From Henckelia pumila (lineage: Eukaryota > Streptophyta > Magnoliopsida > Lamiales > Gesneriaceae), in the NCBI RefSeq assembly GCF_033568475.1, contig NW_027331831.1:8928001-8992000 (forward strand): a stretch of DNA of 64,000 nt, given 5' to 3'. Below the pieces are notes generated by a model. That model was given only the letters and a program-made list of their open reading frames with translations, was not told the DNA's origin and searched no databases. The position numbers and the translations under genes are program-made. Positions 8,480 to 63,002 of the stretch are shown here, in pieces; positions within the stretch are counted from its first letter, which is position 1, and the number at the start of each line of letters is the position of its first letter.

Positions 8480-8484
<5 letters not shown>

Positions 8485-8525: not shown

Positions 8526-8529
<4 letters not shown>

Positions 8530-11865: not shown

Positions 11866-11897
<32 letters not shown>

Positions 11898-22241: not shown

Positions 22242-22546
22242 CAACATCATGGATGCCTTTGTAAGTTTGATTCCTGATTGTTGTTATTAACGTGGGAGGA
22301 GAAATCAAGAAGCTACTTTCTTGTCTGATATTCTTTGTCAGCTCTGAGCTTTGGACTTGTCAATGGGATCCTTCGATAAAAGTCAGAATAAGTATAGCCC
22401 TTCAAGGAAAAAACAAAAGGGATATTTGCCACGAACAAAGCTTTACCAGTTTGAGATCCTAGAGCCCGAGAAATTTCCAAACTGGAAGCTATTATAAGCA
22501 TGCACTATGCACAAAATTCTGCAAGGACCTTGGCGATGCTGAAGAG
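22242..22546. other. Spacer between the GT77 gene and the PADRE gene
   Basis: 305 bp on the same strand between the GT77 stop and the PADRE ATG; it must hold the GT77 3' UTR and the PADRE 5' leader. A non-coding first exon of the PADRE gene cannot be excluded. Confidence 0.45.
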
Positions 22547-23143: not shown

Positions 23144-23832
23144 ATCTCTTTTGCGAATTGATACTTGGAACTAAGAACCCTGTCGTATTTGTGGGGTGAT
23201 CCTTACAGTATTTCTTCGTTATAGTTTCCTTCAAACTTGTACTGCATGCATCTGTACTAGAATTGGAATCAAACAAGATGGTAATAAAGGAAATTTTAGA
23301 TTGAACACCTAAGTATTCCTATAACTAGTGGTGATGACTGATGCCATAATTCAAATCTTTTTTATACACCACAGAAGTTGAGCAATCGTGTTTCTAATCA
23401 TGCAGGAGAACAGGGTCCTTTGTACTTTCATTCCAATTGCATTGGCTCACATGTATCCTTGCACCAAAAACCACAGATAATAGTGATGATATCAAAGCAT
23501 TATATTTTGATCAGTCGGAAAATTCGGTGCTTCCAGAGGGTGGGCATTTGTAGTGGGACTGAAGATTATGGTTCCACATGTAAAAACAGATGTCCACACT
23601 TGGATGCCCTAACTGCAGCATCGAACTTACCTTGATCGGTCTGCTATATAAGCAGCCGAGCATGACAGTATGATAACAAATGACAAATCTGTAAAAAGTT
23701 GCTACTGCATTATCAACTTCAGTAGAAAACACACTGAGAATTGCATAAAAATTAAATCGTTGAATAAAATTTTTCCAGAGCGCATCATCAATGCACTCAA
23801 AATGTTTAAAATCATGATCTTCTAGTGTCAAG
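23144..23832. other. Convergent 3' region between PADRE gene and PHT2;1
   Basis: Both neighbours end here, so it holds their 3' UTRs. Frames at 23378-23635 (+) and 23511-23843 (-) have no domain and overlap each other; not called. Confidence 0.5.
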
Positions 23833-25972: not shown

Positions 25973-26774
25973 GACTAAAAGGTGTCACAACTCAAATGGA
26001 TGAAAAACACAACTGAGGAGCGAATATTTGAGGGAATTATTCAGTTTGATTCTCGGCCATGGAATGTAGAGGACGACTGGGAATGGCCGACTCTGCATCT
26101 CCTTGATTTTTCGACTTCTTTTTTGGCCATCTTTATTTATTTGGTGGAAAAGTTAAGAGGAGAGTGTGGATTTGGTTGATCAGTGGAACGAATGGTGGAA
26201 AATTCAAGATTTGAATTTGTTGTCTCGAGCTGCGATTTGTTTGTTTTTTTACTTGACATGTTCATTACACAAGCCACAGATCTTTGTCAAGAGGGAGACA
26301 TGTTAAAAACGTTGAAGAGCAAAAAAAAAAAAAAATACAGCTCAACTAATTTTACACATTATTTTTTATACACAATATCCATACAAAGTATTTTATCTAA
26401 ATACACAATTACATAGCTGGACCCGACATAAGTCCATCGTCTCAGGTTCAGATCTAAAAGAGAGCCCAAAAATTTTCTTAACTACTAGCACTGTATGTTT
26501 GTGTTTCTATGAATTTTAAATTTTTTGTTACGCTGATTTTCATGAAATAGTACAGACATACACACACATTACATTTTGTCACGTATATATTCAGTAACAA
26601 TGCCACTCAATCATTGAATTTAAGCTAAGTTTACACGTTGTAAATTTAGTTTTAAAAATCATATTTAATAAAAAAAAATAAACACATTTTATTGTCTTGA
26701 GACTCAATTTTTTAAAATTCGACAGACTTTGAAAATCTTATGTACGACATTGTTCATAAATACTTTTAACACGA
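25973..26774. other. PHT2;1 upstream region and AT-rich spacer
   Basis: Should contain the PHT2;1 promoter and 5' UTR. Small plus frames (25982-26179, 26183-26416) run antisense to the promoter and show no domain. An A13 tract lies at about 26322. No element border until the MITE at about 26775. Confidence 0.45.
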
Positions 26775-30892: not shown

Positions 30893-32786
30893 TGTGAAGA
30901 TTCGGTTTTTTTTAGTAACATTACAAGAGTTGAAAGGCCAACATCAATGTAGAAATTGAAGAGTCATGATCAAGGTTTGTAATAGCCCAATTCATGGCTG
31001 ATAATGACATTAAAATGGGATTTAATGGCCTTAAACCATGACCATTCAGCTGATCTAAGTTGCCTATAAATACTCCCAAAGTTTGAGTGAAAAATCACAA
31101 CCAAGAAGCATTTCAAAGTCCATTGTACTGATTTTTTTCGTCACCCCATATGACTTCGAAATCCAATCTCCACCGTTCACAATATACCTTTTTATGTTAT
31201 ACATATTCTGTCCAAGTTTCAACCCAATACAACGGTTAGATTTACCTAAAAGGCCTTCGCGATAATACGTGGTAGATTTTAGGCGAGAAGGGAGCGCCTT
31301 CAGTTCTTCGACCAAAAATGGTATCAAATGATCGTCAAAGCCGATCTTCACCGTTCATAATATTTTTCACATCCTTATGAACGTGCTGACAAAATTTCTG
31401 ATCGATCCGACGGTTCAATATTCCGAAAATACTTCTGCAAGTTGACTGAATTTTGTTGCATACAAATCCGAAAATAACGTAAGTGGGTTTTTGTTTCTTT
31501 AAGCCACATTTGTTTCAATTCGATGGAAATCATTGAGTCTTGTTTCTATTGGACTCTTTTTGTTCATTTTAATTCTCTAAGCATTATTCTAAGAAACCAT
31601 CGAAATCTTTGTTTGGGCTTATTCTTGTTTGAAATCACCAAGTATCCGTTTAAAGTTTTGATCGTACACTTTTTTGTTTTATGTCCTTTGATTCCGTATA
31701 TTTTTTGTTCCGCATGAATCCTTTGTTATGCTTCATTTTGAAGTACCTTATGATTCGTTATGCATTCCTTTGCTAAGCCTTTGTTCAGATTCATTATCTT
31801 CTTTTCGTTCCAATTGATACCCATGTGATATGTTCATTTGTGATGATTCTGATTTGAATAATGGCGCATTGGGAAAAGACTATGAGGGAAAAGGCCCCAG
31901 AGGGAGCCTGTCTACGGGAAAAGGCCCCAGAGGGAGCCCATGCGTGGGAAAATGCCCCAGAGGGAGCCCGTTTATAGGAAAAGGTCCCAGAGGGAGCCCA
32001 AAACCAGTAAAAGCCCATGGTCATTATGATAAGATATGAATAAATATATTTTTAAAAGAATGATGTTTCTGTTTTGAAAACTCAATCGTACATTCCTAGT
32101 TTCATGTCCTTTGATTTCGTTTCATGTTTCGTTCTGTACGATTCCTCTTTTATGCAATGAGATCTTGAAATGCACTGTTAGGATTCAAATTAATAAATGG
32201 TAAGGAAATTCGGAAAATATGATATGATAAGGCCCTGATGCGGTGGGTTATAATAACCGTTTAAGGCCTCGTCCCCTTAGAGGAGTAACAATTAGGGACT
32301 GATCAGTAGCCAGGATTAACGAGATGAATAACAGTGCCATGTATAAGTTATGATTCGGTTATGATATGTCTTGATTCTTTGTTTCGAATTCTGTTTGTCT
32401 CCTGTCTTGACTCCTATTGAATTCGTATCATTTATATATATTCGATATTTGTGTATACAATTGGCCCCCACTTACTGAGTGTTTCCCAAAACACTCACCC
32501 CCTTACTTCCCTCCCCAGATACGGGCGAAGATGAGTTGGAAGATGATGAACAACACGCATTTTGGGGTTGGTGATCAAGTACAAGATATGAAAATTCAAG
32601 AATTTATTTCAGTCTTATTTCTTACTACGTTAATTGCTTCCGCACTTTTGTTTTTCACTGTAAAAAACAGTTATGGTTTATGAAATAGACTGGTTTTTGG
32701 AAAGATTTGTACTACGAGGCTTGTTGTTTCAATGTTAAATTGTTAAACAACGCCGATGTCAACTGGGCCGGTTCCGGGGCGTGACA
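30893..32786 (+). repeat. Element C left (5') LTR
   Basis: Starts TGTGAAGATTCGG and ends CCGGGGCGTGACA. Frames in it (31083-31265, 31523-31717, 32417-32683 and the minus ones) recur identically placed in the right LTR and are not genes. Confidence 0.93.
31886..32005 (+). repeat. 30-bp tandem repeat, 4 units, in element C left LTR
   Basis: Four 30-bp units starting at 31886, 31916, 31946 and 31976, core 'ggccccagagggagcc'. A period of 30 keeps the frame, so it reads as a 10-residue repeat (GKGPRGSP...). Adjacent units with no unique spacers, so not a CRISPR array. Confidence 0.92.
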
Positions 32787-33579
32787 TTTTAGTGGTATCA
32801 GAGCCTCCAGATTCCATAATCCGGATGGGAAGAGCTTCTTGCTGAAAAAAAAATCAGTTGTGAAGCAGCCCTTGTTCAGATAGACCAGCTGGGACAATAG
32901 ACCAGTTGGGAGAGAAAGAATCCGATAAGACAAAATAGTTGGCTGATAGAATAGATTTGTTAAGAGTAATCTGATTCTAGAATGAACTTCACTTTTGTCC
33001 TTGAACGAGTTATGGGACGTGCAAGTACTCAAATCAAGTTAGCTACAAATCAACACCAGTTAGCGCAAAGAACGCACATGAAGAAGAGCCAATAGAAGTA
33101 GACATGCGTGAAATGCGACAGACTAAGCTTATCACAGAAAGGATGAATTTTAATTCATAGATCTATCACACTATATCTTGTGTGTTTAGCTAAGGGTAAA
33201 CCAATTAAGGATGATTCTAGTTAAGAGAAACTCAGTTAAAGGAATTTAGGTTTGAACTATTGAAAAACATGGATATATTTAGAGAGGAATTCAACTATTA
33301 GTAATTCATCTAGTAGGAATTTGGGTATGTAATGCTTATAGACAATATTAAGAAAAGTCCGGCTAAAAAAAACATGCCGAGAGGATGGGGATTTTAGTGA
33401 ACTTGATAGAACAATGTAAGATAATTACGTAATTTGAGTTCAATTAGTAGAGATATGCCAATAAGAAATTTTTTGTATGGACATTAATTGTATCAAAATT
33501 ATTTTTGGGTTTAAATAAGATCATGGGTGATCGTTGATAGACTCATAAAATTCGTGCATCATCGCATGAATTTATTCTA

Positions 33580-33905
33580 GACAAGTTGGTTACCCTAGAC
33601 ATAGACAATATGGTGCGATTACGAGGAATCATGACAAGCATACTATCTTGTAGATATCTAAGTCAAATTCTTGAAGTTGGACCACTCGTGATTAAAGGGA
33701 TCTTGAATAAATATTTGAAGTATGAAGAAAGTCCAATCCAAATAGTGGATACCAAGGACCAAGTTTTGAGATGAAGAACCATTCCGTACATAAAAATAAA
33801 ATGGTCTAACCACACGGAGAGAGAGGAACTTCAGAACTTGAGGAAAAGATGCGCAAGATATATCCCTTTATTTTTAAAGGGCAAGTTGACTCGAGTTTCG
33901 AGGAT
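33580..33905 (+). pseudogene. Pol C-terminal remnant inside element C
   Basis: Reads ...LKYEESPIQIVDTKDQVLR, stop, then IPYIKIKWSNH, a match in order to the end of A and B pol (ERPIQILDRKEKQLRNK, IPLVKIQWSRHG). It is broken by a stop near 33774 and a frameshift near 33830. Confidence 0.7.
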
Positions 33906-33930
33906 GAAACTCTCAATAAAGAGGGTGGGA

Positions 33931-35826
33931 TGGGAAGATTCGGTTTTTTTTAGTAACATTACAAGGAGTTGAAATGCCAACATCAATGTAGAAATTGAAG
34001 AGTCATGATCAAGGTTTGTAATAGCCCAATTCATGGCTGATAATGACATTAAAATGGGATTTAATGGCCTTAAACCATGACCATTCAGCTGATCTAAGTT
34101 GCCTATAAATACTCCCAAAGGTTGAGTGAAAAATCACAACCAAGAAGCATTTCAAAGTCCATTGTACTGATTTTTTTCGTCACCCCATATGACTTCGAAA
34201 TCCAATCTCCACCGTTCACAATATACCTTTTTATGTTATACATATTCTGTCCAAGTTTCAACCCAATACAACGGTTAGAGTTACCTAAAAGGCCTTCGCG
34301 ATAATACGTGGTAGATTTTAGGCGAGAAGGGAGCGCCTTCAGTTCGTCGACCAAAAATGGTATCAAATGATCGTCAAAGCCGATCTTCACCGTTCATAAT
34401 ATTTTTCACATCCTTATGAACGTGCTGACAAAATTTCTGATCGATCCGACGGTTCAATATTCCGAAAACACTTCTGCAAGTTGACTGAATTTTGTTGCAT
34501 ACAAATCCGAAAATAACGTAAGTGGATTTTTGTTTCTTTAAGCCACATTTGTTTCAATTTGATGGAAATCATTGAGTCTTGTTTCTATTGGACTCTTTTT
34601 GTTCATTTTAATTCTCTAAGCATTATTCTAAGAAACCATCGAAATCTTTGTTTGGGCTTATTCTTGTTTGAAATCACCAAGTATCCGTTTAAAGTTTTGA
34701 TCGTACACTTTTTTGTTTTATGTCCTTTGATTCCGTATATTTTTCGTTCCGCATGAATCCTTTGTTATGCTTCATTTTGAAGTACCTTATGATTCGTTAT
34801 GCATTCCTTTGCTAAGCCTTTGTTCAGATTCATTATGTTCTTTTCGTTCCAATTGATACCCATGTGATATGTTCATTTGTGATGATTCTGATTTGAATAA
34901 TGGCGCATTGGGAAAAGACTATGAGGGAAAAGGCCCCAGAGGGAGCCTGTCTACGGGAAAAGGCCCCAGAGGGAGCCCATGCGTGGGAAAATGCCCCAGA
35001 GGGAGCCCGTTTATAGGAAAAGGCCCCAGAGGGAGCCCAAAACCAGTAAAAGCACATGGTCATTATGATAAGATATGAATAAATATATTTTTAAAACAAT
35101 GATGTTCCTGTTTTGAAAACTCAATCGTACATTCCTAGTTTCATGTCCTTTGATTTCGTTTCATGTTTCGTTCTGTACGATTCCTCTGTTATGCAATGAG
35201 ATCTTGAAATGCACTGTTAGGATTCAAATTAATAAATGGTAAGGAAATTCGGAAAATATGATATGATAAGGCCCTGATGCGGTGGGTTATAATAACCGTT
35301 TAAGGACTCGTCCCCTTAGAGGAGTAACAATTAGGGACTGATCAGTAGCCAGGATTAACGAGATGAATAACAGTGTCATGTATAAGTTATGATTCGGTTA
35401 TGATATGTCTTGATTCTTTGTTTCGTATTCTGTTTGTCTCCTGTCTTGTCTTCTATTGAATTCGTATCATGTATATATATTCGATATTTGTGTGTACGAT
35501 TGGCCCCCACTTGCTGAGTGTTTCCCAAAACACTCACCCCCTTACTTCCCTCCCCAGATACGGGCGAAGATGAGTTGGAAGATGATGAACAACACGCATT
35601 TTGGGGTTGGTGATCAAGTTCAAGATATGGAAATTCAAGAATTTATTTCAGTTTTATTTCTTACTACGTTAATTGCTTCCGCACTTGTGTTTTTCACTGT
35701 AAAAAACAGTTATGGTTTATGAAATAGACTGATTTTTGGAAAGATTTTTACTACGAGGCTTGTTGTTTCAATGTTAAATTGTTAAACAACGCTGATATCA
35801 ACTAGGCCCGGTTCCGGGGCATGACA
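33931..35826 (+). repeat. Element C right (3') LTR
   Basis: Starts TGGGAAGATTCGG and ends CCGGGGCATGACA. Carries the same four 30-bp units at 34925-35044. Confidence 0.93.
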
Positions 35827-39941: not shown

Positions 39942-40629
39942 TGTGAAGCCTCGGGTTGCTAATCTCATTCTTAGGGCAATTAGTAATTAAACATCATTAA
40001 TAAACAAAGGAAGGAATAAGATCAAACAAATTTTTTATTTTTATTATTTTTTTCAAAGGGGAGTGCACGGGGTCAGTCAAAAAGAGCAGACCGTTCGCCC
40101 CCTTAACCCAACTCTCGAGTTGGGAACAAAATAGGCAGCGCTCGGTCCGCTAAAAAGAGCAGACCGAGCACAACACTGGGCAGCCTTGTGCTCTGGTTTT
40201 TTACAGCAAAATTTGATCCTTCCAACCTCTCCAATTCAACATAATGATGTCCCAAAACATGTAGATATATATAGAACAAGATCTAAACATGTTTATAACA
40301 AGCTATACATCAAAGTAGAGGTTTGAATCCAACCAAAAGCGTGAAATTATACAAAGTGTTCATCAATTCTTCAAGAACAACAACTAGAGTGTTTTCTAAC
40401 ATGCTTTCTAGACTTAATATACATTGTTGCAACTACAACAATCCGAGTCCACATCTCTAGACTCTCTCATGAGCTACCCTCGTCGACTTTGGCCAGCTCC
40501 TGCCCCATCTGTTGCCATGCACACATACAAAACAAAGCAACAGGCGGATAAACTTCGGTGAGAAAACATTTCCAGTATAATCGACATATATAAAGCGTTA
40601 AATAAATCACATCGACTCTATTCATATCG
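39942..40629 (-). repeat. Element A 5' LTR, part next to the body
   Basis: Matches 27896-28570 of the 3' LTR. It is interrupted at 40629 by element B; the rest is at 54917-56259. Confidence 0.93.
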
Positions 40630-42575
40630 TGTGAGACCCCGTTTCTAAACTTCTATACTCGATTAATTAAACACAAACGAACACGAGGAGCCGCGGAAAA
40701 ACGAATCAATTTTTTTTTTAAATCCTGCGCGCCCGCGCCATCCCCACGCTCTGCCGGCCATGCGCGCCCGCGCGATGATCCTCGCACGCCCGCGCACAGC
40801 CCTCGGGCAAAAACCAAATTTGCTGCACAGTGAGGCGCGCCCGCACGTCAAAGTGGCGCGCCCGCGCGTGCCTCTCGGTTTGATGAAGCCTGGACACGAA
40901 ATTATTAACTCCACAAGCTCAAAACGATAATCCAAGCAACCAAGGTTCCAACCATATATAGTTAATACATGAAATAACGAGTTTGAAACACTAACAAAAC
41001 AAGATATTAACAATACAAGTTAGACAATAGGATTTGTCCGACTAAACAAGACGACACAAGTTCAAAGGACACAACCCTAAGACACGGTGTCTCACTTCTA
41101 TCATCTCACCCCGAGCTAACCCAAACCACTCGGCCCTGCTCCTGATCCTCCTGTTTCCAAGTACACATACAAACAAAGACAACAGCCGGATAAACCGGTT
41201 AGAAATATAATTTCTAAGTAAAAGAGACAGACATGCAATATCAGATAAACACCTCAGATTGAAATGCAATAATCAATAACAAATCAAAATGAGAATGAAT
41301 GTATGCATGACTTCAAAACTCGGGACTATCAAATCAGATAATCAAAATATCAATCGGTATTCGGTTGGGATCCCGGGGCCAAGTCTTCACAACAACTCAC
41401 CGACACACCCATTCGGGGTGGATGTCGTTCAACTCAACCCCTAGACTTCAGAGCAACTATAAGAAATATTCTGGCACTTGAAAAAACTCGAAATCCAATA
41501 ACACTTCAATATAGCTCCCTAAATCGTCTAATTTCAAAACGAATCGAGAAATCGGCTCAATATGGATGCAAGTGTAAATAAAATGATCAATCAAATTCAC
41601 ACCAGCAATTAAACACGCAGTATGTGATTTTCGGGGCTCGAGAATCAATCGAACTCGAGTATTCAACCCCATTCGAATCAATGTCGTCTTTTACCTTTCA
41701 AGTCCGTCGAGGATTCAATCTGAAAATAACAACGAACTCAAATAAATAATCAATCGAATCACAACAAATCGAAACAAATAAACTCAATCAATATACCGTC
41801 TTCGCTTCTCCATTTGATCGACTCCCAAGTTCGATCCAAATCCGAAAATCCAATCCAAATCTGAAATGAAGAATATACGGATCTGATATCAATCTACCAA
41901 ATCAATCAAACCCGGAAATCAAACCGAAATAAAATAACCGATAGTCCAAACTCGATTTCGACGGCATAACGGCTATAATCGGTCAAACCAAAAATTATCA
42001 ACCTCATCAAACCATTCTATACAATCCATATCAACTTCCCAACCAACAAATCAATCAAAATCCAACCAAAATCCAACACCCCATTTTCGAAATATACCTC
42101 AAAAATCATATAAAATCCAAACTTCGTTCTTTTTCCAAACTGACTTCGAATACACGATCTATGCTAGCTCAAGAACAACATACTCCAAGATTATTAAATT
42201 CTAACGACCCGACAAAAATCAAAGTTCGAGGATCGTAGCAAAACTTACGTCAGAACAAAGCCCTCATTGCGGTGATCGTGAAACTCAACTCGGAATCGAA
42301 ATCTAACGGTCGGATCGAGCAAATCAGACGAAAGCAAGGCTTGAGGAATCGTTGGCTATGGCTTCTAGGTTCAGCACGTACGAATGGAGAGGAAGGGAGG
42401 AGAGGAAATGATGTGATGTGATGGTCAAGTTGCAAGGTAAAATAATATAATCCAACTTTTGCATTTCGGTCCCTGAAACTCTCAATTTAATTCGATTCAA
42501 TCCCGGCTCAATAAATCTCCAAAATAAATAATAATCAATTCCAATAATCACGAAAAGTAATTTCAGGGCCTTACA
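40630..42575 (-). repeat. Element B 3' LTR
   Basis: Plus strand TGTGAGACCCCG...GGGCCTTACA. Includes the GC-rich block listed separately. Frames 41042-41269, 41457-41681 and 42250-42551 recur in the other LTR and are not genes. Confidence 0.95.
40720..40880. repeat. GC-rich 'gcgcgcccgcg' cluster in element B LTR
   Basis: About six imperfect copies of 'gcgcgcccgcgc' within 160 bp of otherwise AT-rich LTR. The counterpart at about 53086-53210 has fewer units and differs mainly by indels here. Strongly CpG-rich. Confidence 0.8.
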
Positions 42576-42588
42576 ATTCTCCCCCTCT
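42576..42588 (-). other. Element B polypurine tract
   Basis: Minus strand AGAGGGGGAGAAT abuts the TG of the 3' LTR. Confidence 0.8.
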
Positions 42589-42665
42589 AAGATTCGATTT
42601 CGTCCTCGAAATCTGACATATCACAGACTGAAACAAGAAAGAACCATACTGAAAAAGAACTCACC

Positions 42666-43894
42666 TCAATCGAACAATTCTGGAAATCGCTGCCTCATAT
42701 CAGATTCGGTCTCCCAAGTTGCTTCTTTGACTCCGTGACGACTCCACTGAATCTTCACTAACGGAATCTACTTGTTTCTGAGTTGCTTCTCTTTTCTGTC
42801 GAGAATCTGAATCGGTCGCTCGAAGTAACTCAGAGTCTCATCAAGTTTGGCCTCGTCTGGTTGAAGAATGTGGGACGGATCCGGATGATATTTCCGCAAC
42901 ATCGAGACGTGAAACACATCGTGGATGCCTGAAAGAGACGGAGGAAGAGGTATCCTATAGGCAAGATCGCCTATCTTCTCCAGAATTTCATACGGACCAA
43001 TGAATCTCGGAGACAACTTTCCTCTTTTCCCGAATCTGACAGTGTCTCTGAACGGAGAAATCTTCAGAAACACACGGTCCCCCTGATCAAAAGACAGTGG
43101 TCTGCGTCTGACATTCGCGTACTTGGCCTGTCAATCTTGGGCTGTCTTCATCCTGATTCGAATCAACTTCACCTGCTCTGCCATGTCGCGAATCATATCT
43201 GGACCCAACTCAGGTGATTCTGAAATCTCATCCCAAAACAACGGAGATCTGCACTTCTTACCGTACAAGGCTTCGAAAGGTGCCATCCCAATACTCGCCT
43301 GGAAGCTGTTATTGTACGAAAACTCCACTAGAGGCAAGAACTCCTTGCCAACCTGATCCAAAATCAAGCACTATTGCGCGAAGCATATCCTCCAAAGTCT
43401 GGATCGTACGCTCGGACTGACCGTCGGTCTGAGGGTGATACGCTGTGCTCAAGTGCAAACGAGTACCCAATGCCCCCTATAGACTGTGCCAAAAGTGAGA
43501 AGTAAACCTCGGATCTCTGTCTGATACTATCGACTTCGGCACGCCGTGCAATCTCACAACCTCTCTGACATACAACTCGGCCATCTGATTGTGACGGTAT
43601 GTCATACAGTATGGAATGAAACAATCAGATTTCGTCAACCGGTCAATCACTACCCAAATCGCATCACAACCTCTGATTGAACGCGGTAGCTTCGTGACAA
43701 AATCCATAGAGATATGATCCCACTTCCATTCCGGAACAGGAAAACTGTGCAATAATCCACCTTGTTTCTTCCTCTTGTCTTTCACCTGTTGACAATTCAG
43801 ACAACGGGACACAAATCTCGTGACATCTCCTTTCAGTTGCTTCCACCAGAACTGAGTCTTCAAGTCGTTATACATCTTTCGGCCTCCAGGATGA
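42666..43894 (-). pseudogene. Element B pol 3' end, second copy (integrase to chromodomain)
   Basis: From [19 protein letters not shown] (integrase zinc-binding region) to the chromodomain end ATWETESDMRQRFPELFD with stop at 42668-42666. Bases 42732-43894 repeat 48094-49256 over exactly 1,163 bp, with about 23 substitutions and no indel by eye. Both copies share the same one-base insertion near 43360/48720 that breaks the frame after VLDFG. A further stop (TGA for CGA) lies at about 43130 in this copy only. Confidence 0.9.
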
Positions 43895-44255
43895 TTAGCT
43901 CCTTGACAATCGCATGTCGAAGTGGGCGTGTTTGTTCACCAAAGAGTTCTTTGAGATGCAAATGAATGTCAGCAGCATGCATTGCACTCTCAAAACGTCG
44001 CTGAAGCTCATCATTCATAGAAGCCTGCATATAACACTTGGCTTTCAAGTCATGGTCACACCAATCCTTGTAAGTCTGTAGCTCCTCAAGGCTACAATCA
44101 GTCGGAGCCATATCAGGGGGCGACTCATCAAGTGTGTATGCAATCCTCTCCGAGTTCAAGACGATTTTAAGATTTTTTAGCCAATCGAGGTCATTTGGAC
44201 CGGTCAGTAAATATTTGTCGAGTATAGTAGATAGCGGATTGCGAATTGATGACAT
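43895..44255 (-). pseudogene. Copia gag, N-terminal fragment
   Basis: Starts MSSIRNPLSTILDKYLLTGP, then DWLKNLKIVLNSERIAYTLD, and ends around [18 protein letters not shown]. This is the order of plant copia gag (UBN2-type) proteins. About 120 residues remain before the junction. Confidence 0.8.
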
Positions 44256-45918
44256 TGTCAAAACTTGTACTGAAAAATAATAACAGATAAATGTCAATGA
44301 CTATTTTAAAATATTTAATAAGATATAAAGTGTGGACTTTAACTTTATAAATATTTACTCCCACTGTTTTTGACATTTTTACTACCCTCAAGTAAAAACG
44401 GAAAACTCCTTTCCTCAGTAGGTACATAAGGTCCAATTAGCCAATTACGATCCCGAATAATATCAGCCAATCATAATTTCTAAAAGGTAGTTTCCAATTG
44501 CATCTCCATGCAACCCTTACGTAAACTTTTGTCTCACGTTTGATTAGGACCCAATAATATGACGTCGTTCATCTTTACGTGTCAAGCCTTACCCATCGAT
44601 ATCGAACCTTAATGAACGGTCGCCATGAGTTCCCCCAATAATATGAGCCGAAGTCATGGGAGTTCCACGTAGTTCACATCACCATGTCAATGGATGTCAC
44701 AGCTTTCCGGCATCCAAACCCCCCAATAATATGAGCCGAGTATTGAATACGGGTAGCGTTCATCATGCATCCATTGTCGATGGAAGACATGGAAATTATA
44801 AACACATTTATAATTCCCCTTTTCGGGCTTGATATAAATTTTGAATCTAATTCAAAATGAGGGTTTTTAATTTTGAAAAGGTCTCATCATTAATTTTAAA
44901 GATCGCCATGTTTGATCGTATGTTTGCCGGATTCATGCAACTTTGTTATTATAAAATAATAACGCACATACCAATTAACAAGGATGATCAATCGCCCCAA
45001 AAACTATTTGGCCCGTGTGAGCCAAACACGGGCCTAGGTCCAATTTCTAGGGAATGCATGGGATGCAAATGCAACAATTACATAAGCTTCCAATATTTAC
45101 ATGTCTTGGATCTTCATAATTCATCATGGCCCACCATCTTCCAATCTTGAACTTCCGCTGTCAAATATTTTACATGAAAATATCCATGGCAAATAGGGAT
45201 ACATCTCATGGGGTGGAACGGGCCATAAACCAAGCCCACTTTATAATTTGATAATTATTACAACCATTCAACACAAAATATCCTAGCATACACCTAGCAA
45301 ATTGGTCTTGGGCTTTTAATCATCCTTCATGCACAATATCACATATCATACACCATCAATTAATTATCTCAATAATCAATTGATCAAATATTATATATCT
45401 TGGTCCAATCACTAACCACCACAATTATAAAATAAATTAACAAAATAAACAAACACCTTTGTTTACTTTAAAATTAATTTATTTATAATTGAATTTCTTG
45501 TAAATCATAATTTACTATAAATAATCAAAGTCACACTTTAACTATTTATTTTATGAGAAAAATCACATATTATAAAGTTTAATTTTTCATAAAAATCAAC
45601 TATAATATATTTAACAATTTAGGGCCTATGACACATGATATTCCAAAACACCTTTTGAAAAACTCAAGTCGTCATAGTCGTCACCGAAACTCCGTCGCCG
45701 GATTCCGGCCAAAAAATTATTATTATTATTTTTTATTAAAAATATGGGGCAGCCCACGGCTGCCCCTAGGACACCTTCGGGCAGCCTATGGGCTGCCCGA
45801 AACCATAAAAAAAATATTTATAAAAACAGCCCAAAATTGATAAATCTTGATTTTCTCATGCGGTTAGAAATTGACCTCAACATAATATCCAACAAATACT
45901 ACACAAATGAGTAACCTA
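44256..45918 (-). other. Copia leader with repeated motif and GC hairpins
   Basis: Long untranslated leader between the primer site and gag. The plus-strand motif CCCAATAATATGA occurs near 44552, 44633 and 44721, with a weaker copy at 44453. Two GC hairpins with 9-bp stems lie at 45746-45766 and 45778-45799 in AT-rich surroundings. The small plus frame 44857-45150 is not supported as a gene. Confidence 0.6.
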
Positions 45919-45932
45919 GGCTCTGATACCAC

Positions 45933-46490
45933 TGAAGGGGATCGGTTAACTCGTGCCCGGAAACGCAGCGGAAATATAAAAATTTTTAACAAAAGAAATC
46001 CGAGCACTTGTGTAGTATTCAAAAACTCAAACAACCATAGGGTGTTTAGAATTTTACCTATCAATCTCAAAGATTGATTTATGGCTCCAACCAAGTTGAT
46101 AAACAACTAGGCTCTTGAAAAAGGGTAGACTCAATCTACAAGCTTCCAAGAGCACTCCTTGCTCAAAATGGATTCAACACTTTGAGCCTCCGAATTAGGT
46201 CCACGACTAGACAATCTAGATCCGCTCTAAATATGCACTAGAATATTTAGAAAATTTTGCATTGAGATATCCTTTTCTTTCTTCCTCAAAAAGTTGAAAG
46301 AAAAATTGGAGAATTCTTGGAGAGGGTTTCAGCCACTTCTAGAATTTCATTAGTGGAATATGTGAATGTGTGTATGTAATTATAATGGAGAAGGATTAAT
46401 TAGGCACAATTAAGCCATGCATGGAAAAGTGCAAGTCATGCATGGAAAATTGTAAACTATCATCCAACTCTTCAAATTCCATCACACACA

Positions 46491-46545
<55 letters not shown>

Positions 46546-48093
46546 GCCCAAAATATATATACATATATAAATATATATATTTAAATGTTTTGAACTTATT
46601 TTAATTAAATATTAAACCTAAACCCATTTAAGTTTAATCAATTAATTAAATTCAACTTGAACTCATTCAAGTACACTAGTAACAATAATTATATAACACT
46701 ATTTTATTTGAGCTCTTAGTGTTTAATTATTTGTACATTAAAATGTCAACTAGTGTTAAATTAATTCAACACTTGAATTAATTAACTAAGTTCAAAATAA
46801 TAGTTTAGAAAATCACCATTTTCATAAACTAATTATTTTAAGTCAACTTTTAATCTTGGAACACATTCACAAATTAAAAGTTACTTATTCCATTCATTCT
46901 CCAATTTAGAAGTCAAACTTCTAATTTATTTTACTTATAAACTCCTTTATAAGTTGTTCAACACATTGAACTTATTTTAATCTCAACGGGATCTAGAAAG
47001 CTAGTACTTGTGTAACCCTCAATGGTTCACTGATACAACTAGCAGTGGGTTCACATCTCCATGTGATTCGGGATCAACAAGTCCCTTATATGAGCATACC
47101 CTATATATAGCTCCATTCTTATTGATCAACACATTGATAATAAGAACGTCAGAAAACTCAAGTCTGATAGTACCCAACCAGTCATGTAAACGTCTAGCAG
47201 CATCGCTTACATGACTCCCTAGGTATCAAATGATAGTGCCTGCAAGAACCAATCAATTATGGTTAGCGTACAGTACGGTCCCTTCAACTCATATATCCCG
47301 ATCGATTCGACAACCATTGGTTTATCGAGAGTTGTCATTGAATCAATAACTATGTGTCATGCCGTAGTTGCATCGAAAATGTAATTCAAGAAACTCCTTT
47401 CTTAATTACACTTACTCTGATCAGAGATTTCAAGCTACGTATGCATGATATAACATAGGATATCCATACCCGTAGGTAAGTGGTGAATCCCCGACTACAA
47501 TGCATTGACTCATATATGTTTCATCACAACACCCAACATTGCCACCTGATGACCCCAGATGAGTCGGTAAACAAGTCAAAGTGAAGCACTAGCATATAGA
47601 GTCTCTATGTTGTCCCGAGTTATAAGGACTAATGGTGTACAACCATAAACTAGGACTTCTCCACTCGATAAGTGAGAACCACTTGGAAAATCCTTTAGGG
47701 AGGGTTGTTCAGTGCACTCTACAAGGAGCACCTATTTGCATGCTTGGACATATCCATGTCCCCTACCAATGAAACATGGTACTCACATCGCAAATACTAG
47801 TCTCAAGCTCGAGCGGCCTTTATCCTTCTTTATGGCGGCTGAATCGACTAGGAACAGTTTAGAATATACAGTATTCCAAATATGAGTTTCATGATAGTCA
47901 TCACATGACCATCTCATATTCTTTCTACTATTTGTATATTCAAGGGCTTTATCTATGCAGCTTGCATGGGTATAAAGATAAAGATGTGCCAAATTAAATA
48001 ATGCCAAATATTATTAAAATAAAGATTGTCATACAAGAGTTCTCTCAAGGACCATCGGCCAACATATTGGCTCGACGGGCACCTACTCTAACA
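45933..48093 (-). repeat. Copia 5' LTR
   Basis: 2,161 bp with TG...CA ends. Contains a (TA)n tract of about 48 bp at 46494-46542. Frames 47008-47214 and 47783-48007 are not genes. Confidence 0.8.
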
Positions 48094-51000
48094 TCCGTGA
48101 CGACTCCACTGAATCTTCACTAACGGAATCGACTTGTTTCTGAGTTGCTTCTCTTTTTTGTCGAGAATCTGAATTGGTCGCTCGAAGTAACTCAGAGTCT
48201 CATCAAGTTTGGCCTCGTCTGGCTGAAGAACGTGGGATGGATCCGGATGATATTTCCGCAACATCGAGACGTGAAACACATCGTGGATGCCTGAAAGAGA
48301 CGGAGGAAGAGGAATCCTATAGGCAAGATCGCCTATCTTCTCCAGAATTTCATACGGACCAATGAATCTCGGAGACAACTTTCCTCTTTTCCCGAATCTG
48401 ACAGTGCCTCTGAACGGAGAAATCTTCAGAAACACACGGTCCCCCTGATCAAAAGACAGTGGTCTGCGTCTGACATTCGCGTACTTGGCCTGTCGATCTT
48501 GGGCTGTCTTCATCCTGATTCGAATCAACTTCACCTGCTCTGCCATGTCGCGAATCATATCTGGACCCAACTCAGGTGATTCTGAAATCTCATCCCAAAA
48601 CAACGGAGATCTGCACTTCTTACCGTACAAGGCTTCGAAAGGTGCCATCCCAATACTCGCCTGGAAGCTGTTATTGTACGAAAACTCCACTAGAGGCAAG
48701 GACTCCTTGCCAACCTGATCCAAAATCAAGCACTATTGCGCGAAGCATATCCTCCAAAGTCTGGATCGTACGCTCGGACTGACCGTCGGTCTGAGGGTGA
48801 TACGCTGTGCTCAAGTGCAAACGAGTACCCAATGCCCCCTGTAGACTGTGCCAAAAGTGAGAAGTAAACCTCGGATCTCTGTCTGATACTATCGACTTCG
48901 GCACGCCGTGCAATCTCACAACCTCTCTGACATACAACTCGGCCATCTGATTGTGACGGTATGTCATATGGTATGGAATGAAACAATCAGATTTCGACAA
49001 TCGGTCAATCACTACCCAAATCGCATCACAACCTCTGATTGAACGCGGTATCTTCGTGACAAAATCCATAGAGATATGATCCCACTTCCATTCCGGAACA
49101 GGAAAACTGTGCAATAATCCACCTGGTTTCTTCCTCTCGGCTTTTACCTGTTGACAATTCAGACAACGGGACACAAATCTCGTGACATCTCCTTTCAGTT
49201 GCTTCCACCAGAACTGAATCTTCAAGTCATTATACATCTTTCGGCCTCTAGGATGAACACTGAACCGACTGCAATGCGCCTCTCGAAGAATACGCTGTCT
49301 CAACTCAGAAACATCGGGCACAACAATACGGTTATTCACAAATAGTACATCATCCCTGACCTGAAACTCTGACTGGTGACCTGATCTAACCTTCTCAATC
49401 GAACTCTGACTGCTCGGATCGGATTTCTGAGCCTCTCTGATCGACTGAAACAACTCTGGCTCTGCCTGAATCGCAAAAACTCTAATGGATCTTCTATCGG
49501 TCTCAAACTCCAAACCAAAAGTACAACAATATTCAATCATCTGAGAGACACCAATCGTAGAAAGAGACAATGAGCAAAGCTTCCGACTAAGAGCGTCTGC
49601 AGCTGCATTCGAATTTCCAGGATAATACTTGATCTCACAGTCGAAGTCCTTAAGCAAATTCATCCATATTCTCTGTCTCATGTTAAGCTCGGACTGAGAA
49701 AACAAGTATTTCAGGCTCTTGTGGTCAGAAAATATCTCAAACGACTCGCCATAAAGGTAATGGCGTCAGGTCTTCAAAGCAAACACAATCGCCGCAAGCT
49801 CAAGGTCATGGATCGGATAACGAGTCTCGTGCGGCTTCAGCTACCTCGAAGCATAAGCTATGACGTGCTTCCTCTGCATAAGAATGCATCCAAGACCACG
49901 GTGAGAAGCATCACAGTAAACGGAAAAACCTCCCGTACCTGATGGAATACACAAGATCGGAGCGCTGGTCAACCTCTTCTTCAGTTCAATGAAACTGGCC
50001 TCGCACTCCTCGGACCAAACAAACGGTGCATTCTTCTGGGTCAACTGAGTGATCGGCTTTGAAATGGAAGAGAAACCCTCGATAAATCGGCGATAATACC
50101 CCGCTAAACCCATGAAGCTTCGGATTTTTGGCACTGATGTCGGTTTCGGCCAATTCATAACTGCCTCGATCTTACTGGGGTCAAAAGAAATTCCATCTCC
50201 TGATACAATGTGGCCTAAGAAAACCACTCGGTCCAACCAAAACTCGCACTTCGATAGCTTAACATACAACTGTTCGGCTCGCAAAGTCTGCAATACAATC
50301 CTCAAATGCTCTGCATGATCTGAACGATTCTTCGAATAGATCAGAATGTCGTCAATAAAGATAATGACGAACTCATCCAAATACCGCTGAAAGATACGAT
50401 TCATTAGATCCATAAAAACTACTGGAGCATTTGTCAAACCAAACGGCATGACTACGAACTCAAAATGCCCATATCTGGTTCTGAAAGCTGTCTTAGGCAC
50501 ATCTTTGTCGCGAACTCTCAGCTGATGATACCCTGATCTCAGATCTATCTTCGAATACACTGAAGAACCCTGCAGTTGATCAAAAAGATCGTCGATCCTA
50601 GGTAGAGGATACTTGTTCTTGACCATCGCTTGATTCAACTGACGATAATCGATGCAGAGTTGCATAGAACCGTCCTTCTTCCTTACAAAAAGCACTGGAG
50701 CACCCCAAGGCGATACGCTAGGTCGGATGTATCCCTTGGCAATCAAATCTTCTAACTGCTCCTTCAACTCCTTCAATTCTAACGGAGCCATTCGATAAGG
50801 TGCTTTTGAAATAGGCTGAGTACCTGGTGCAAGTTCGATGTTGAATTCGATCTCTCGAATCGGCGGCAAACTAGGAATCTCATCTGAAAACACATCCGGA
50901 AACTCGTTCACCACTGGTATCTCAGTCAACTCAGGACTAGACCTCTGCACATCTACTGCATAAATCAGGAACCCTTCTGCTCCTCTCTGAAGCAAACGAG

Positions 51001-52653
51001 ACAAGGACAATACAGAAATCAAAGGAATCTTGGATCGAGAACCCTTACCGAAAAACTTCCAATCATCTGCCATCTCAGGTCTGAAGCGAACCACTTTCTG
51101 AAAGCAATATACTGTCGCCCTATACTTGGTCAGAGCATCAATCCCGACAATACAGTCAAAATCAGATAATCCAAGTACAATGCAGTCTATCTCAATCGAA
51201 TTCCCCTCGAATTCTAACACACAGTTTCGGACCATTCTCACCGAAATAATTCCTCCACCCAAAGGTGAAGTAATCGAAACAACATCAGATAATGGCTCAG
51301 CAAATAAATCATGCATCACAACAAATCTTTCAGAAATAAAACAGTGAGAAGCACCCGTATCAATCAACACAAACGCAGGATAACCAAAAATCGAACAGTT
51401 ACCTGCTATCACGTCATTCAGAGCTGCATTGGCCTGGTCCTTTGTCAGAGCAAACACCCTCGCCTGCTGTCGAGGAGGTTGGTTCTGATTCTGATTACCT
51501 CCCTGACGAGATTGCTACTGGGGCTGAAAATAATGGACTGCAGAAGATGATCTTTCAGGCTGAGTTGGCGGTCTAGAAGAACTGCCGCTCTGAGCTCTAT
51601 CGGATCCTCGCTGAGGACAGACTCTAGCAAAGTGACCCGGCTGCTGGCAGATATTGAAACTACCAAACACGCCTCGACACTGATCACTTGGGTGGCGTCC
51701 TCCACACTTACTGCACGATGCTCCTGAAAACCCTGAATTCTGTCCGGAACTGAATTGTCTAGAGCCACCGGAGCTCGATGAACTGCTCCCAGACTTCTTG
51801 AATTGCTTCCCCTTCGGTCTATACTGATCTCGCCTGTTTCTGCCACTGTTGTCTCCCTCAACCCTCTGAGACTGATTCGACTGCTGAGAAGGTTGGTACT
51901 GATACTGGGATTACTGAGGCGAAACTGAACAGGCTGGTTTTGAAAAGATCTCTGTTGCTGCTGAGGAGCTACCTGATTTTCTCGCTGCATCAACAGTCCA
52001 GCTTCGGCTCCCTTTGCCTGATCCATTGCATCTGCAAAGTTGTTGGGTCTCCCGGTATTGACCAAGGTAAAGATCTCAGGGTTCAAGCCATTGATGAAGT
52101 GATCGGCTTTGGCTTCCTCGTGATCTGAAATGTGAGGTGCAAACCTCAAGAGGCCGTCGAACTTGCTCACGTACTCCTCGATACTCAAATTTCCTTGCTT
52201 CAGATTCGCAAATTCGGCACCCTTTTCCTTACGATATGAGACAGGAAAGAACCGCTTGTAGAACTCAGTCTTAAATAAATCCCAAGTAACAACGGTGCCT
52301 CGATTCTCACTTGCCCTCTTGGTTGTGGTCCACCAATTCTTGGCAACACCCTGAAGCTGGTGAATGACTAACCTGATTCTGCGGTCATCGGTATAGTCGA
52401 GAGAATCAAAGAGCTGATCGATGTCCTCTAGCCAACTCTCACAGTCAACGGAGTTCTCGGTGCCAGTCAAGGTAGGCGGTCGAAAAGATCAAAATCTCTT
52501 CAATGGAGTCTCCATCGGGGTTGCGGTTGCATCAAACTGATCCACTCCAGTACTACCCTGATCATTCGGAGGAGTTATTACTGGCGGCGGATTCTCAGTA
52601 CAAGGAGGAGTCAAAGGTGGTGGATTCCTTCTCACAGATCGTCGAGGTGCCAT
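48094..52653 (-). pseudogene. Element B gag-pol, main copy, broken
   Basis: Gag starts at 52653 (MAPRRSVRRNPPP). Breaks: stop in gag after PLKRF (about 52490); a frameshift in the Gln-rich part (about 51900) before the zinc knuckles; the second knuckle has Phe for its first Cys (FNICQQPGHFARVC). Protease [22 protein letters not shown] and [11 protein letters not shown], and RNase [10 protein letters not shown] follow. Stops after AYASR (about 49840, TAG for CAG) and in ALKTW (about 49770, TGA for TGG). Integrase [27 protein letters not shown] and [12 protein letters not shown], then a one-base insertion near 48720. It ends at 48094 inside the chromodomain (KIQWSRHG), where copia begins. Confidence 0.92.
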
Positions 52654-52969
52654 CTGATATCAAAGGTTAGGACACAATATCTCAAACTCAATCTCAATCT
52701 CAAACCTCGATGTCCAAACTCTGCTCTGAGTACTCATGAATTCCGATAATATCCAATGACAGATAATAACACAAGGACAGATATATATCACGTAATTCAT
52801 GCTTTATAAATTAAATCACAACTCATGTAATTCAATTAATTCAAGAATCAATAAAGCATGCTCGCATGTATTTAAATAATCATTTAAATAAATCAATCAC
52901 ATGCGAGAATTCAATTCGTGCGGACTCGATCTACCCTGCTCACTCTAGTTCAAATCCAAGAATCTTATC
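52654..52969 (-). other. Element B untranslated leader
   Basis: Between the primer-binding site and gag ATG. No other frame. Confidence 0.7.
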
Positions 52970-52981
52970 GCTCTGATACCA
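52970..52981 (-). other. Element B primer-binding site (initiator tRNA-Met)
   Basis: Minus strand TGGTATCAGAGC, five bases from the 5' LTR end. Confidence 0.9.
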
Positions 52982-52986
52982 CTTAA

Positions 52987-54911
52987 TGTGAGACCCCGTT
53001 TCTAAACTTATATACTCGATTAATTAAACACAAACGAACATGAGGAGCCGCGGAAAAACGAATCAATTTTTTTAAAAAAAAATCCTGCGTGCCCGCGCCA
53101 TCTTTACGCGCGCCCGCGCATGACGCTCTGCCGGCCACGCGCGCATGCGCACAGCCCTCGGGCAAAAACCAAATTTGCTGCACAGTGAGGCGCGCCCGCG
53201 CGTGCCTCTCGGGTTGATGAAGCCTGGACACGAAATTATTAACTCCACAAGCTCAAAGCGATAATCCAAGCAACCAAGGTTCCAACCATAGTTAATACAT
53301 GAAATAACGAGTTCGAAACACCAACAAAACGAGATATTAACAATACAAGTTAGACAATAGGATTTGTCCGACTAAACAAGACGACACAAGTTCAAAGGAC
53401 ACAACCCTAAGACACGGTGTCTCACTTCTATCATCTCACCCCGAGCTAACCCAAATGACACGGTCCTGCTCCAGATCCTCCTGTTGCCAAGTACACATAC
53501 AAACAAAGACAACGGCCGGATAAACCGGTTAGAAATATAATTTTTAAGTAAAAGAGACAGACATGCAATATCAGATAAACACCTCATATTGAAATGCAAT
53601 AATCAATAAAAAATCAAAATGAAAATGAAAATGAATGTATGCATGACTTCAAAACTCGGGACTATCAAATCAGATAATCGAAATATCAATCGGTATTCGG
53701 TTGGGATCCCGGGGCCAAGTCTTCACAACAACTCACCGACACACCCATTCGGGGTGGATGTCGTTCAACTCAACCCCTAGACTTCAGAGCAACTATATGA
53801 AGTATTCTGGCACTTGGAAAAACTCAAAATCCAAGACCACTTCAATATAGCTCCCTAAATCGTCTAATTTCAAAACGAATCGAGAAATCGGCTCAATATG
53901 GATTCAAGTGTAAATAAAATGATCAATCAAATTTACACCAGCAATTAAACATGCAGTATGTGATTTTCGGGGCTCGAGAATCAATCGAACTCGAGTATTC
54001 AACCCCATTCGAATCAATGTCGTCTTTTACCTTTCAAGTCCGTCGAGGATTCAATCTGAAAATAACAACGAACTCAAATAAATAATCAATCGAATCACAA
54101 CAAATCGAAACAAATAAACTCAATCAATATACCGTCTTCGCTTCTCAATTCGATCAACTCCCAAGTTCGATCCAAACCTGAAACTCCAATCCAAATCTGA
54201 AATGAAGAATATACGGATCCGATATCAATCTACCAAATCAATCAAACCCGGAAATCAAACCGAAACAAAATAACCGATAGTCCAAACTCGATTTCGACGG
54301 CATAACGGCTATAATCGGTCAAACCAAAAATCATCAACCTCATCAAACCATTCTATACAATCCATATCAACTTCCCAACCAACAAATCAATCAAAATCCA
54401 ACCAAAATCCAACACCCCATTTTCGAAATATACCTCAAAAATCATATAAAATCCAAACTTCGTTATTTTTCCAAACCGACTTCGAATACACGATCTATGC
54501 TAGCTCAAGAACAACATACTCCAAGATTATTAAATTCTAACGACCCGACAAAAATCAAAGTTCGAGGATCGTAGCAAAACTTACGTCAAAACGAAGCCCT
54601 CGTTGCGGTGATCGTGAAACTCAACTCGGAATCGAAATCTGACGGTCGGATCGAGCAAATCAGACGGAAGAAAAGCTTGAGGAATCGTTGGCTATGGCTT
54701 CCAGGTTCAGTACGTACGAATGGAGAGGAAGGGAGGAGAGGAAATGATGTGATGTGATGGTCAAGTTGCAAGGTAAAATAATATAATCCAACTTTTGCAT
54801 TTTGGTCCCTGAAACTCCCAATTTAATTCGATTCAATCCCGGCTCAATAAATCTCCAAAATAAATAATAATCAATTCCAATAATCACGAAAAGTAATTTC
54901 AGGGCCTTACA
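52987..54911 (-). repeat. Element B 5' LTR
   Basis: Pairs with 40630-42575. Shorter mainly because of lost GC-rich units around 53086-53210. Confidence 0.95.
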
Positions 54912-54916
54912 TATCG

Positions 54917-60552: not shown

Positions 60553-63002
60553 ATGGATATGAATCTTGGGAATGAGTTTACGGATGTTAGATTGACTGAT
60601 GATGTTGTTAACAGCCAAAAAGATAATGAAAAAGATAATGATTCTGTGGATGAAGAGGTGATAAGGGTTTTAAAAGAAGCTTTGAATAAAGAAAATTTGG
60701 TGGAAAGAATTGACCTTTCTGGGCGCCAGCTGAAATTTCTGCCCGAACCATTTGGCAAGATTCGTGCTTTGGTGGTTCTTGATCTTTCGCAGAATAATCT
60801 TGAGGTTTGTATTATGATCCAATAATTTCATTTTCTTGTTAACTTGTGTTGGTTTGTGATGCTTGACGATTATTATTATTTTCCCTTTCGGTTTAAAAAG
60901 TCTGTTGCTTTCTTGATTTGGCTGCTGGAGGTAACGATAAATGAGAAAGGAGAGTGATACTAGTAGAATTTGGTGTTCAAGATTGAGTTTTAATATGAAT
61001 TATTTCCTAAACAAGTAATTCGTAATTAGTTTGTACCTTTCGGCTTATGTATGGTGTTGACTGATCTGAAGCTTTCTTGAGTTATGGTTTGCTGAATTCA
61101 ACAAGGAAACATGGGAAAAAAAGAAAACAAAAAAAGGAAAGAAAAGAAAAGAGAGAACTTGGTGGGATCGTGAGGTTCTTGTTTGAATTGATTAAAATCA
61201 GAAGGAAACAAGACCGTGGAGGATGAGATGGGCGTTAGCAGATCCGGACCTTTAGTGTGCTCGGCACTCGGTTTCTTAATTTTTTGTTAGGAAAATCTCA
61301 AATTTTCGTGCATAATTTGCCTGTGTGATGCATGACACTGAAAACCTGCTGAAGCTAGAAATTGGTAGTGTCCATATTAATTTAGCTGATCGGACCGTCC
61401 TAACGGGGAACGATCCTCCCAATCAATCAGAGTAAATTCTGAAAATTGAAACTGTTGTATAACCTTTGGGGATTCAAATCATAGTTTTGATGACTGTGTT
61501 ATGAGTTGCACAAATCGATGATGGCTTTCTTTTACAGGTTTGGTTCGGTATTCTTACTTTAGACGAATAATTGCTTGTATGTGTTGAACTCAAGATTATT
61601 TGCAAAAAAAATTTTAGGTTTGGTGTCTCTGGAGTTGGTCCATTGTCCTATGGTTGAACATGAACAATCACTAAAACCATTGTTACTTTTGGAACTTTAG
61701 GCTTTGCAATGATCATGCAAATTTCAAACTGGAGTTGACTGGATTGTGCCAATCATCCTAACAAGCTTTATATGTTTTGTATATGTTATCTTTTTAACCA
61801 AATGATCCTCCCTTTCCCAAGGCTTCAACTTGGATGAATTCTCTTGAACTTTTTGGTTGTTCAGACGTGCCCCTGTTTTACTTTTTCGAAAATTTAAAAT
61901 GGTATAATTGAGGGTCTTCTTCAGAGACTTGCACTTTCTGGTACAACAGTATGAAGAAACTGAAAACGGGTATCTGAATGACTACACACTTTTCCGAGGT
62001 GTAATATAACCAAGAAAGTGATTATTTTTTCCTGCTCGACCATTTGTTGGAACCAAGAAGTAGATCCATCAAAAATTCTTGTTGACGAGATTCTTCTTTT
62101 GTTCCAGGTCATTCCTGATTCAGTTTCAGGACTACAGAAATTGGAGGAGTTCAACGTCGCATCCAACCTTCTTGAAACATTACCCGATTCCATTGGCTTG
62201 TTGATAAATCTTAAAGTCTTGGATGTGTCAGGAAATAAGCTAAAAAAGCTCCCGGAAAGTATTGCTGGTTGCAGGTGAGACGCTGAAACCGATTAAATTC
62301 GGATGTACTAAACTGGCGACTTTCTGGTCTGACTAATTATATCCACTTTTATTCAACAGATCTTTAATTGAGCTGGATGCGAGCTTTAATAACTTGATGT
62401 TTTTGCCAACAAATATCGGTTATGGATTAGTGAATCTTCAGAAGCTCTCCATTCCCTTTAACAAGTTGAGAGCCTTTCCAAATTCCATCTGTGAAATGAA
62501 ATCACTGATACATTTGGATGCCCATTTCAATGCAATTCACGGACTACCAAATGCGATTGGAAGACTTACAAATCTTGAAATTCTGAATGTCAGCAGTAAT
62601 TTCAATGATTTAACGGAGGTGCCTGAAACAGTTGGTGATCTGAGAAATCTCAAAGAGCTCGATCTTAGTACCAACCAAATCCGAGCTCTGCCTGACTCAA
62701 TATATCAGCTGCAGAATCTAACCAAGCTTCACGTGGACCAGAATCCACTTGTGATCCCTCCGTTGGAGATTGTGAATAAAGGGCTCCAAGCTATCATGGA
62801 ATACATGACGAAGAGGCGGCTTGACATGTTAGAAGCTGAACAACAGAGAATTATACTCGAAAAAAATGCTGAAACGGAGACGGGATGGGTAGCATGGGGC
62901 ACATCCACATTAAGTAACGTTTACACCGGTGTTTCTCAGACTGTTTCCGGGTATCTTGGAGGAAACGCCCCAAGGGATCCATATCTGGATCAGCAATTGT
63001 GA
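60553..63002 (+). CDS. Plant intracellular Ras-group-related LRR protein (PIRL), 3 exons
   Basis: Cytosolic leucine-rich-repeat protein of the plant PIRL family, related to animal/fungal Ras-binding LRR proteins; some members are needed for pollen development. Exons 60553-60804, 62108-62274, 62360-63002; GT-AG, frame kept, 353 residues. Residues 1-45 are acidic and polar. About nine LRRs follow from residue 48, with units such as [38 protein letters not shown] and [18 protein letters not shown]. After the LRRs comes the family motif [17 protein letters not shown], then [13 protein letters not shown] and the end [10 protein letters not shown]. The in-frame stop six bases before the ATG supports the start. 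'tctctag' just upstream could be an acceptor of an earlier exon, which would lengthen the N-terminus as in larger family members. Which PIRL number it is cannot be told. Confidence 0.92.

Follow-up and report, generated by a model that had tools for sequence, protein, structure and literature searches.

A one-ended copia fragment flanked by a 1,163-bp target duplication in Henckelia pumila: a probable half-site integration closed by host repair

The window analysed here is a stretch of 64,000 nucleotides from Henckelia pumila (assembly GCF_033568475.1, contig NW_027331831.1, positions 8,928,001 to 8,992,000), and the feature of interest lies in a Ty3/gypsy long terminal repeat (LTR) retrotransposon, referred to as element B (Table 1; coordinates are positions in the window). 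The domains of B occur in the gypsy order, namely gag, protease, reverse transcriptase, RNase H and integrase according to Pfam, between LTRs located by self-BLAST at 40630-42575 and 52987-54911. The element sits inside an LTR of a related element, A. Its 5-bp target-site duplication (TSD), TATCG, is intact at 40625-40629 and 54912-54916, showing that both parts of B, left and right, come from a single insertion. Within B lies the 5' part of a Ty1/copia element, bordered on either side by a copy of the same 1,163-bp stretch of B.

Table 1. Features of element B and of the copia fragment inside it
Feature	Position in window	Strand	Evidence
Element B, Ty3/gypsy LTR retrotransposon	40630-54911	-	self-BLAST, Pfam, 5-bp TSD
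Left copy of 1,163-bp target duplication (B integrase / 3' pol part)	42732-43894	.	98.0% identical to right copy, gapless; sister in tree
Right copy of 1,163-bp target duplication	48094-49256	.	starts directly at integrase-type junction
Copia fragment, 5' part only	43895-48093	-	relatives from genome search, boundary alignment, Pfam
Complete copia 5' LTR, 2,161 bp	45933-48093	-	inner edge adjoins primer-binding site; outer terminus as in relatives
Primer-binding site TGGTATCAGAGC	45920-45931	-	sequence pattern
Start of copia gag, 120 codons, broken at junction	43895-44255	-	translation, Pfam PF14223
3-bp microhomology TGA, common to target and copia gag at left junction	43892-43894	.	copia relatives and right target copy

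The two copies form a direct repeat with 23 substitutions and no indel, in exact agreement with the equal-length repeats and about 23 changes given in the initial annotation. The sequences outside the two ends of the repeat copies are unrelated to each other. For a match of this length at 98%, chance is not an issue. The first five bases of the right copy, TCCGT, would make a normal 5-bp TSD.

The fragment between them belongs to a Ty1/copia family of this genome, as seen from its gag, primer-binding site, LTR and relatives. The gag matches Pfam Retrotran_gag_2 (PF14223) with E=7e-5 and 22.8 bits, which is under the curated cut-off of 27 bits. It is separated by a long leader from the primer-binding site, which we take to be of the initiator-tRNA type. 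A genome search gave 39 places outside the window, plus the window itself, among the matches listed, at 94-98% identity.

Both junctions are well defined by comparison with these relatives. The LTR terminus CCTACTCTAACA closes the 5' LTR in 10 of the 16 relatives fetched, and the same terminus is found at 48093, making the right junction (48093/48094) the exact LTR terminus of the family joined to target. At the left junction the copia sequence breaks off in gag, and it continues beyond this point in all 16 relatives. When the next 1 kb was compared with that of one relative, 12 of the 16 (that one included) aligned essentially throughout and four stopped earlier. The exact terminus on one side and the break in gag on the other, both proposed in the initial annotation, are thus borne out. 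Before the breakpoint the relatives read ...GCAAAGTGA, the right target copy reads ...AGGATGA, and the window reads ...AGGATGA/TTAGC, with the slash marking the junction. TGA precedes the breakpoint in 16/16 copia relatives and stands at the same place in the right target copy, so that the truncated gag is joined to B with 3 bp of homology. A normal insertion would have both LTR ends and an identical TSD of 4-6 bp; here there is one LTR end and a duplication of 1,163 bp.

The initial annotation had suggested looking for the same chimeric junction elsewhere, and this was done for the left junction. A 40-mer spanning it, allowing up to three mismatches, matched the window and no second place in the 885-Mb genome. 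The chimera has therefore not moved in any detectable form.

The origin of the duplicated sequence was examined using other copies of B. The search for these listed the best 40 of 10,302 first-look candidates, which comprise the two repeat copies and 38 other places. A maximum-likelihood tree was made of the two repeat copies and 20 of the 38 (22 sequences; the bootstrap had not settled according to the tool). In this tree the repeat copies are sisters (support 100/99), with a stem of 0.019 and tips of 0.011 and 0.010. By the search, the other places listed are approximately 95% identical or less to the left copy. Six private states are common to the two repeat copies, including a single-base insertion that breaks the reading frame. 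None of the 20 other B copies fetched carries this insertion, which upholds the earlier suggestion that it predates the duplication. The point of copia insertion is uninterrupted in all 20 of the other B copies fetched. Since the copies are sisters and have the private insertion in common, the duplication must have arisen within this copy of B, after the frame-breaking insertion. The intact TSD of B speaks against exchange with a B element at another locus. The duplication is thus far above a normal TSD in length (1,163 against 5 bp), and the tree, the private insertion and the TSD of B all place its source at the integration site itself.

The 23 differences were also assigned to one copy or the other. 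Judged by the majority state of the other B copies, in a reading of the alignment table, 12 fall on the left copy and 11 on the right; under a strict rule the numbers are 6 and 5, with 12 ambiguous. There is thus no sign of error-prone copying of one repeat copy.

The divergence between the repeat copies provides a relative date. The Kimura two-parameter distance is 0.0201 for the duplication, compared to 0.0397 for the LTRs of B, 0.0367 for those of A, and 0.0182 for those of a third element, C. The difference between the duplication and the B LTRs is significant (Fisher p=0.0038), and persists when only non-CpG sites are counted (0.0156 versus 0.0290, p=0.036). By this measure the duplication is about half as old as B; the description of its divergence in the initial annotation as close to or slightly below that of the B LTRs was wrong by approximately a factor of two. 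Assuming 1.3e-8 substitutions per site per year, the ages would be roughly 0.8 million years for the duplication and about 1.5 million years for B, figures that are only indicative.

To estimate the age of the copia insertion, the 4.2-kb copia piece was placed in a tree together with 12 of the 16 relatives. The terminal branch of the window copy is 0.0089, and is an upper bound on the age of insertion. A direct count over 4,152 sites gave 35 derived changes in the window copy and 43 in its sister, L037, with 3 unresolved. Expressed per lineage, the duplication has an age of 0.0099 (95% confidence interval 0.0063-0.0148) and the copia terminal branch is 0.0087 (0.0061-0.0120), with p=0.68, compared to 0.0152-0.0243 for B. 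The ages of the copia insertion and the duplication agree within error, which would fit a single event.

The normal behaviour of this copia family was surveyed using the 39 places outside the window. Sixteen were taken first; the left stretch was fetched for seven of these, and the LTR edge was seen in five. For the remaining 23, the right end was fetched for 20, of which 19 have the terminus; the left stretch was fetched for these 19, with an LTR edge in 13. All the places were found through the gag/leader region, and copies broken before this region fall outside the sample. Among the 18 relatives with both LTR edges readable (5 + 13), 15 have an identical 5-bp TSD, as expected from the initial statement that a normal insertion duplicates about 5 bp. 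Two of the 15, L047 and L064 (C4:120.29 and 120.45 Mb), agree in their TSD and in 12 bases of right flank; they probably represent a single insertion that a later duplication copied. Another two of the 18 (L061 and L066) appear to be in tandem arrays that share an LTR. In L061 (C3:79.06 Mb), and also in L069 (C3:7.80 Mb), the terminus abuts the polypurine-tract-side sequence seen beside internal LTRs, giving apparent tandem arrays, while in L066 (C4:89.44 Mb) a primer-binding site precedes the left LTR, again an apparent array with a shared LTR. In L063 (C2:64.41 Mb) a copia LTR terminus lies only 2 bp from sequence that resembles the beginning of a second LTR, the arrangement of a two-LTR-circle junction or an end-to-end insertion.

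The last of the 18 (C2:88078229; L076/L096/L100, with L101 at the same locus, C2 ~88.07-88.09 Mb) has both LTR edges and no matching 5-bp TSD. Instead, bases 1 to 2,241 of its right flank recur as 2,258 bp that end exactly at the left LTR edge. The flank copies are 97.1% identical overall by BLAST. The differences are concentrated in a GC-rich tract of about 300 columns that is laden with repeats: 39 of 276 bases differ there, against 6 of 1,959 aligned bases elsewhere, summed over blocks. Its LTRs agree at 1,200 of 1,201 compared base pairs, and its interior was read only in the fetched stretches.

We consider it probable that the structure in the window results from half-site (one-ended) integration of an incomplete or broken copia complementary DNA (cDNA) into the older gypsy element, the other end being closed by host repair. 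Integrase would have joined the intact 5' LTR end at 48093/48094. The other end of the cDNA, lying in gag and lacking an LTR end, would have been left to host repair. This end would carry the 3' end of the sense strand, produced either by plus-strand synthesis that stalled approximately 2 kb beyond the primer-binding site or by a break in the cDNA. The polarity of a stalled plus-strand end follows the established scheme of reverse transcription. The sense-strand 3' end could then pair, over 3 bp, with target DNA lying 1,160 bp rightward of the nick, and prime synthesis back across the insertion site; resolution with the left arm would leave the 1,163 bp twice. Annealing, copying back and joining to the left arm would in this way give the observed order of parts. 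An equivalent route would be strand-displacement synthesis from the free 3' end of the target, followed by end joining.

The main rival is a two-step history, which we regard as unlikely although it has to be taken seriously. A normal two-ended copia insertion with a 5-bp TSD would have been followed soon afterwards by an illegitimate exchange at microhomology, in which a break in gag was sealed to the homologue without copia, at a point 1,163 bp past the site, with loss of the 3' part of copia. This gives the same junctions automatically, including a duplication that starts at the TSD, and 3 bp of microhomology is typical of end joining. Illegitimate recombination is moreover a recognised route of decay of plant LTR elements. 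It does however need two events and a heterozygous insertion, and on its own it leaves unexplained the copy at C2:88.08 Mb, which has both LTR ends beside its 2.24-kb duplication; for that one, exchange between copies must be added.

Several observations count against one-ended integration and have to be set beside those in its favour. The half-site intermediate, the priming step and the identity of the strand copied are inferred. The same DNA would result if a normal insertion had been linked, very soon afterwards, to an allele lacking copia by end joining. Taking the extremes of the confidence intervals, a delay between insertion and duplication of up to roughly half the age of the insertion is possible by estimate. 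At 0.0099, the duplication has a point estimate slightly higher than the 0.0087 of the copia branch, which is what two already diverged alleles would give; if real this would favour the two-step history, but the difference is far from significant. The structure at C2:88.08 Mb could also have arisen if two young copies, inserted at a distance of 2.2 kb, underwent unequal exchange. The identity of its LTRs is compatible with this, because other young copies of the subfamily come almost as close to it (L074, for example, with 1 mismatch). For the window, exchange between two copia copies is excluded, because gag is joined to B by 3 bp. Finally, only one clearly one-ended case was found, with none other identified among the first 16 copia relatives, of which only some were resolved. 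The four relatives that stop within 1 kb of the breakpoint comprise L016/L052 with both LTR edges and a matching TSD, L005/L041 without an LTR end, and L008 and L013, which are unresolved.

One-ended integration followed by repair was also the mechanism favoured in the initial annotation. It gains from the anatomy, the unique left junction with its microhomology, the origin of the duplication within the element, the agreement in age within error and the normal 5-bp TSDs of the family, all direct observations, and from the possible second case and the parallel with human immunodeficiency virus (HIV) described below. On sequence alone the support is partial, as end joining between a freshly occupied and an empty allele would leave the same DNA.

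The remaining explanations fare considerably worse. An assembly artefact, in which two haplotypes were mis-joined, is improbable. The window is on contig C77 (at least 8.99 Mb), outside C1-C4 (183-233 Mb each), which leaves some room for it; against this, the window contains no N, the 3 bp shared at the left join are too few for an assembler overlap, and the best 40 of the 10,302 candidates contain no copy above 95% besides the two in the window, which also rules out a second haplotype in the assembly. Slightly less probable again is a double-strand break in an integrated copia element with resection past the 3' LTR into B, synthesis off another copy of B (ectopic gene conversion) and end joining in gag. 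Templates would be abundant, given the many copies of B (40 places listed from the 10,302 candidates), but the left copy shares 98% identity with the right one, compared with about 95% or less for the others listed, and the private frame-breaking insertion found in both is in 0/20 copies fetched. An ectopic donor for the left copy is ruled out by the tree and this insertion, and the explanation is largely refuted. A pre-existing tandem duplication hit by copia can be rejected by inference, as copia would have had to land precisely at the boundary and later lose its other end at that very point. Less probable still than ectopic conversion is that reverse transcriptase switched templates between the RNAs of copia and B, with the chimera arriving as part of B: chimeric copia DNA is known from Arabidopsis (PMC10462705, in the parts of the article used here), but B had inserted before the duplication formed (0.040 versus 0.020), the left junction is unique, the site is uninterrupted in the 20 other B copies fetched and the join coincides exactly with an LTR terminus, so that dating and the left junction together largely rule it out.

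The closest parallel to one-ended integration comes from HIV-1 and avian retroviruses (Varadarajan et al. 2016, PMC5041404; statements here refer to the parts of that article drawn upon). Aberrant HIV proviruses, like the case in the window, mostly have one normal integrase end, with the other often truncated. At the aberrant junction there is usually a short homology, and the host sequence is duplicated over hundreds to thousands of bp rather than 5 bp. They were explained by an unintegrated 3' end that primes repair synthesis on nearby DNA, followed by recombination. The retroviral cases arose in infected cells in which integration had been disturbed by drugs, by mutations of integrase or by a bad viral end, and aberrant integrations numbered 0/99 and 0/85 in unperturbed controls, whereas the window holds a natural copia insertion in a plant.

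Other systems share some of the features. Natural insertions of the LTR element HERV-K(HML-2) (Kahyo et al. 2017, PMC5488345) have unusually long direct duplications of up to 250 bp; these are several-fold shorter than the one described here, have no break of one end in the portion of the paper used, and concern another host and element class. Truncated neo-insertions of the copia elements EVD and ATCOPIA21 occur in Arabidopsis epigenetic mutants (PMC10462705, within the same parts as above), for which the authors weigh events in virus-like particles, events after integration, and re-insertion of extrachromosomal DNA. All of these keep two LTRs, and two have clear TSDs, whereas the copy in the window lacks one whole end and has over 1 kb of target duplicated. 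A plant LTR element with a kilobase target duplication was not found in searches of open-licence literature, which is no proof of its absence from print. Schiml and colleagues reportedly described in 2016 that in plants distant nicks on opposite strands (adjacent single-strand breaks) are filled in to give direct (tandem) duplications; these are said to be much shorter than the one here, with neither integrase nor a retroelement involved.

The case in the window is probably a natural plant counterpart of what is known from retroviruses, and the same family offers one possible second case. If true, a plant genome here preserves a natural and datable trace of half-site integration finished by host repair, which in the parts of the literature consulted has so far been described for retroviruses under drugs or with mutations. 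LTR-element integration would then be a direct source of kilobase duplications. Annotation based on TSDs would class such copies as truncated or lacking a TSD, and they are easily missed. With the 2.24-kb case, a genome-wide survey becomes testable, in the form of long direct repeats with an LTR terminus as their inner edge. A more tentative and on balance doubtful suggestion is that the integrase or cDNA of this copia family regularly fails to join both ends, so that target duplications of kilobase length, whether or not one end is lost, would be a recurrent natural by-product of its integration and would have gone unrecognised as a source of segmental duplications in this genome.

Element B and the copia piece within it are part of a nest at 27894-56226, in which the gypsy element A is interrupted twice, internally by C and in one of its LTRs by B, which is approximately 72% alike to A. 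Element C, at 30893-35826, has 1.9-kb LTRs that are 98.1% identical, a divergence near that of the 1,163-bp duplication, and an interior of only about 1.1 kb. Each of its LTRs carries a 30-bp tandem array, and C looks non-autonomous. Elsewhere in the window, an imperfect palindrome-like inverted repeat of approximately 650 bp with a 66% self-match occupies 7812-8533 and adjoins an AT repeat. Gene pieces are found at 10523-26000 and 62337-63002, and correspond to a MATE transporter, a nucleotide-diphospho-sugar transferase, a PADRE domain, a PHO4 phosphate transporter and a leucine-rich repeat protein.

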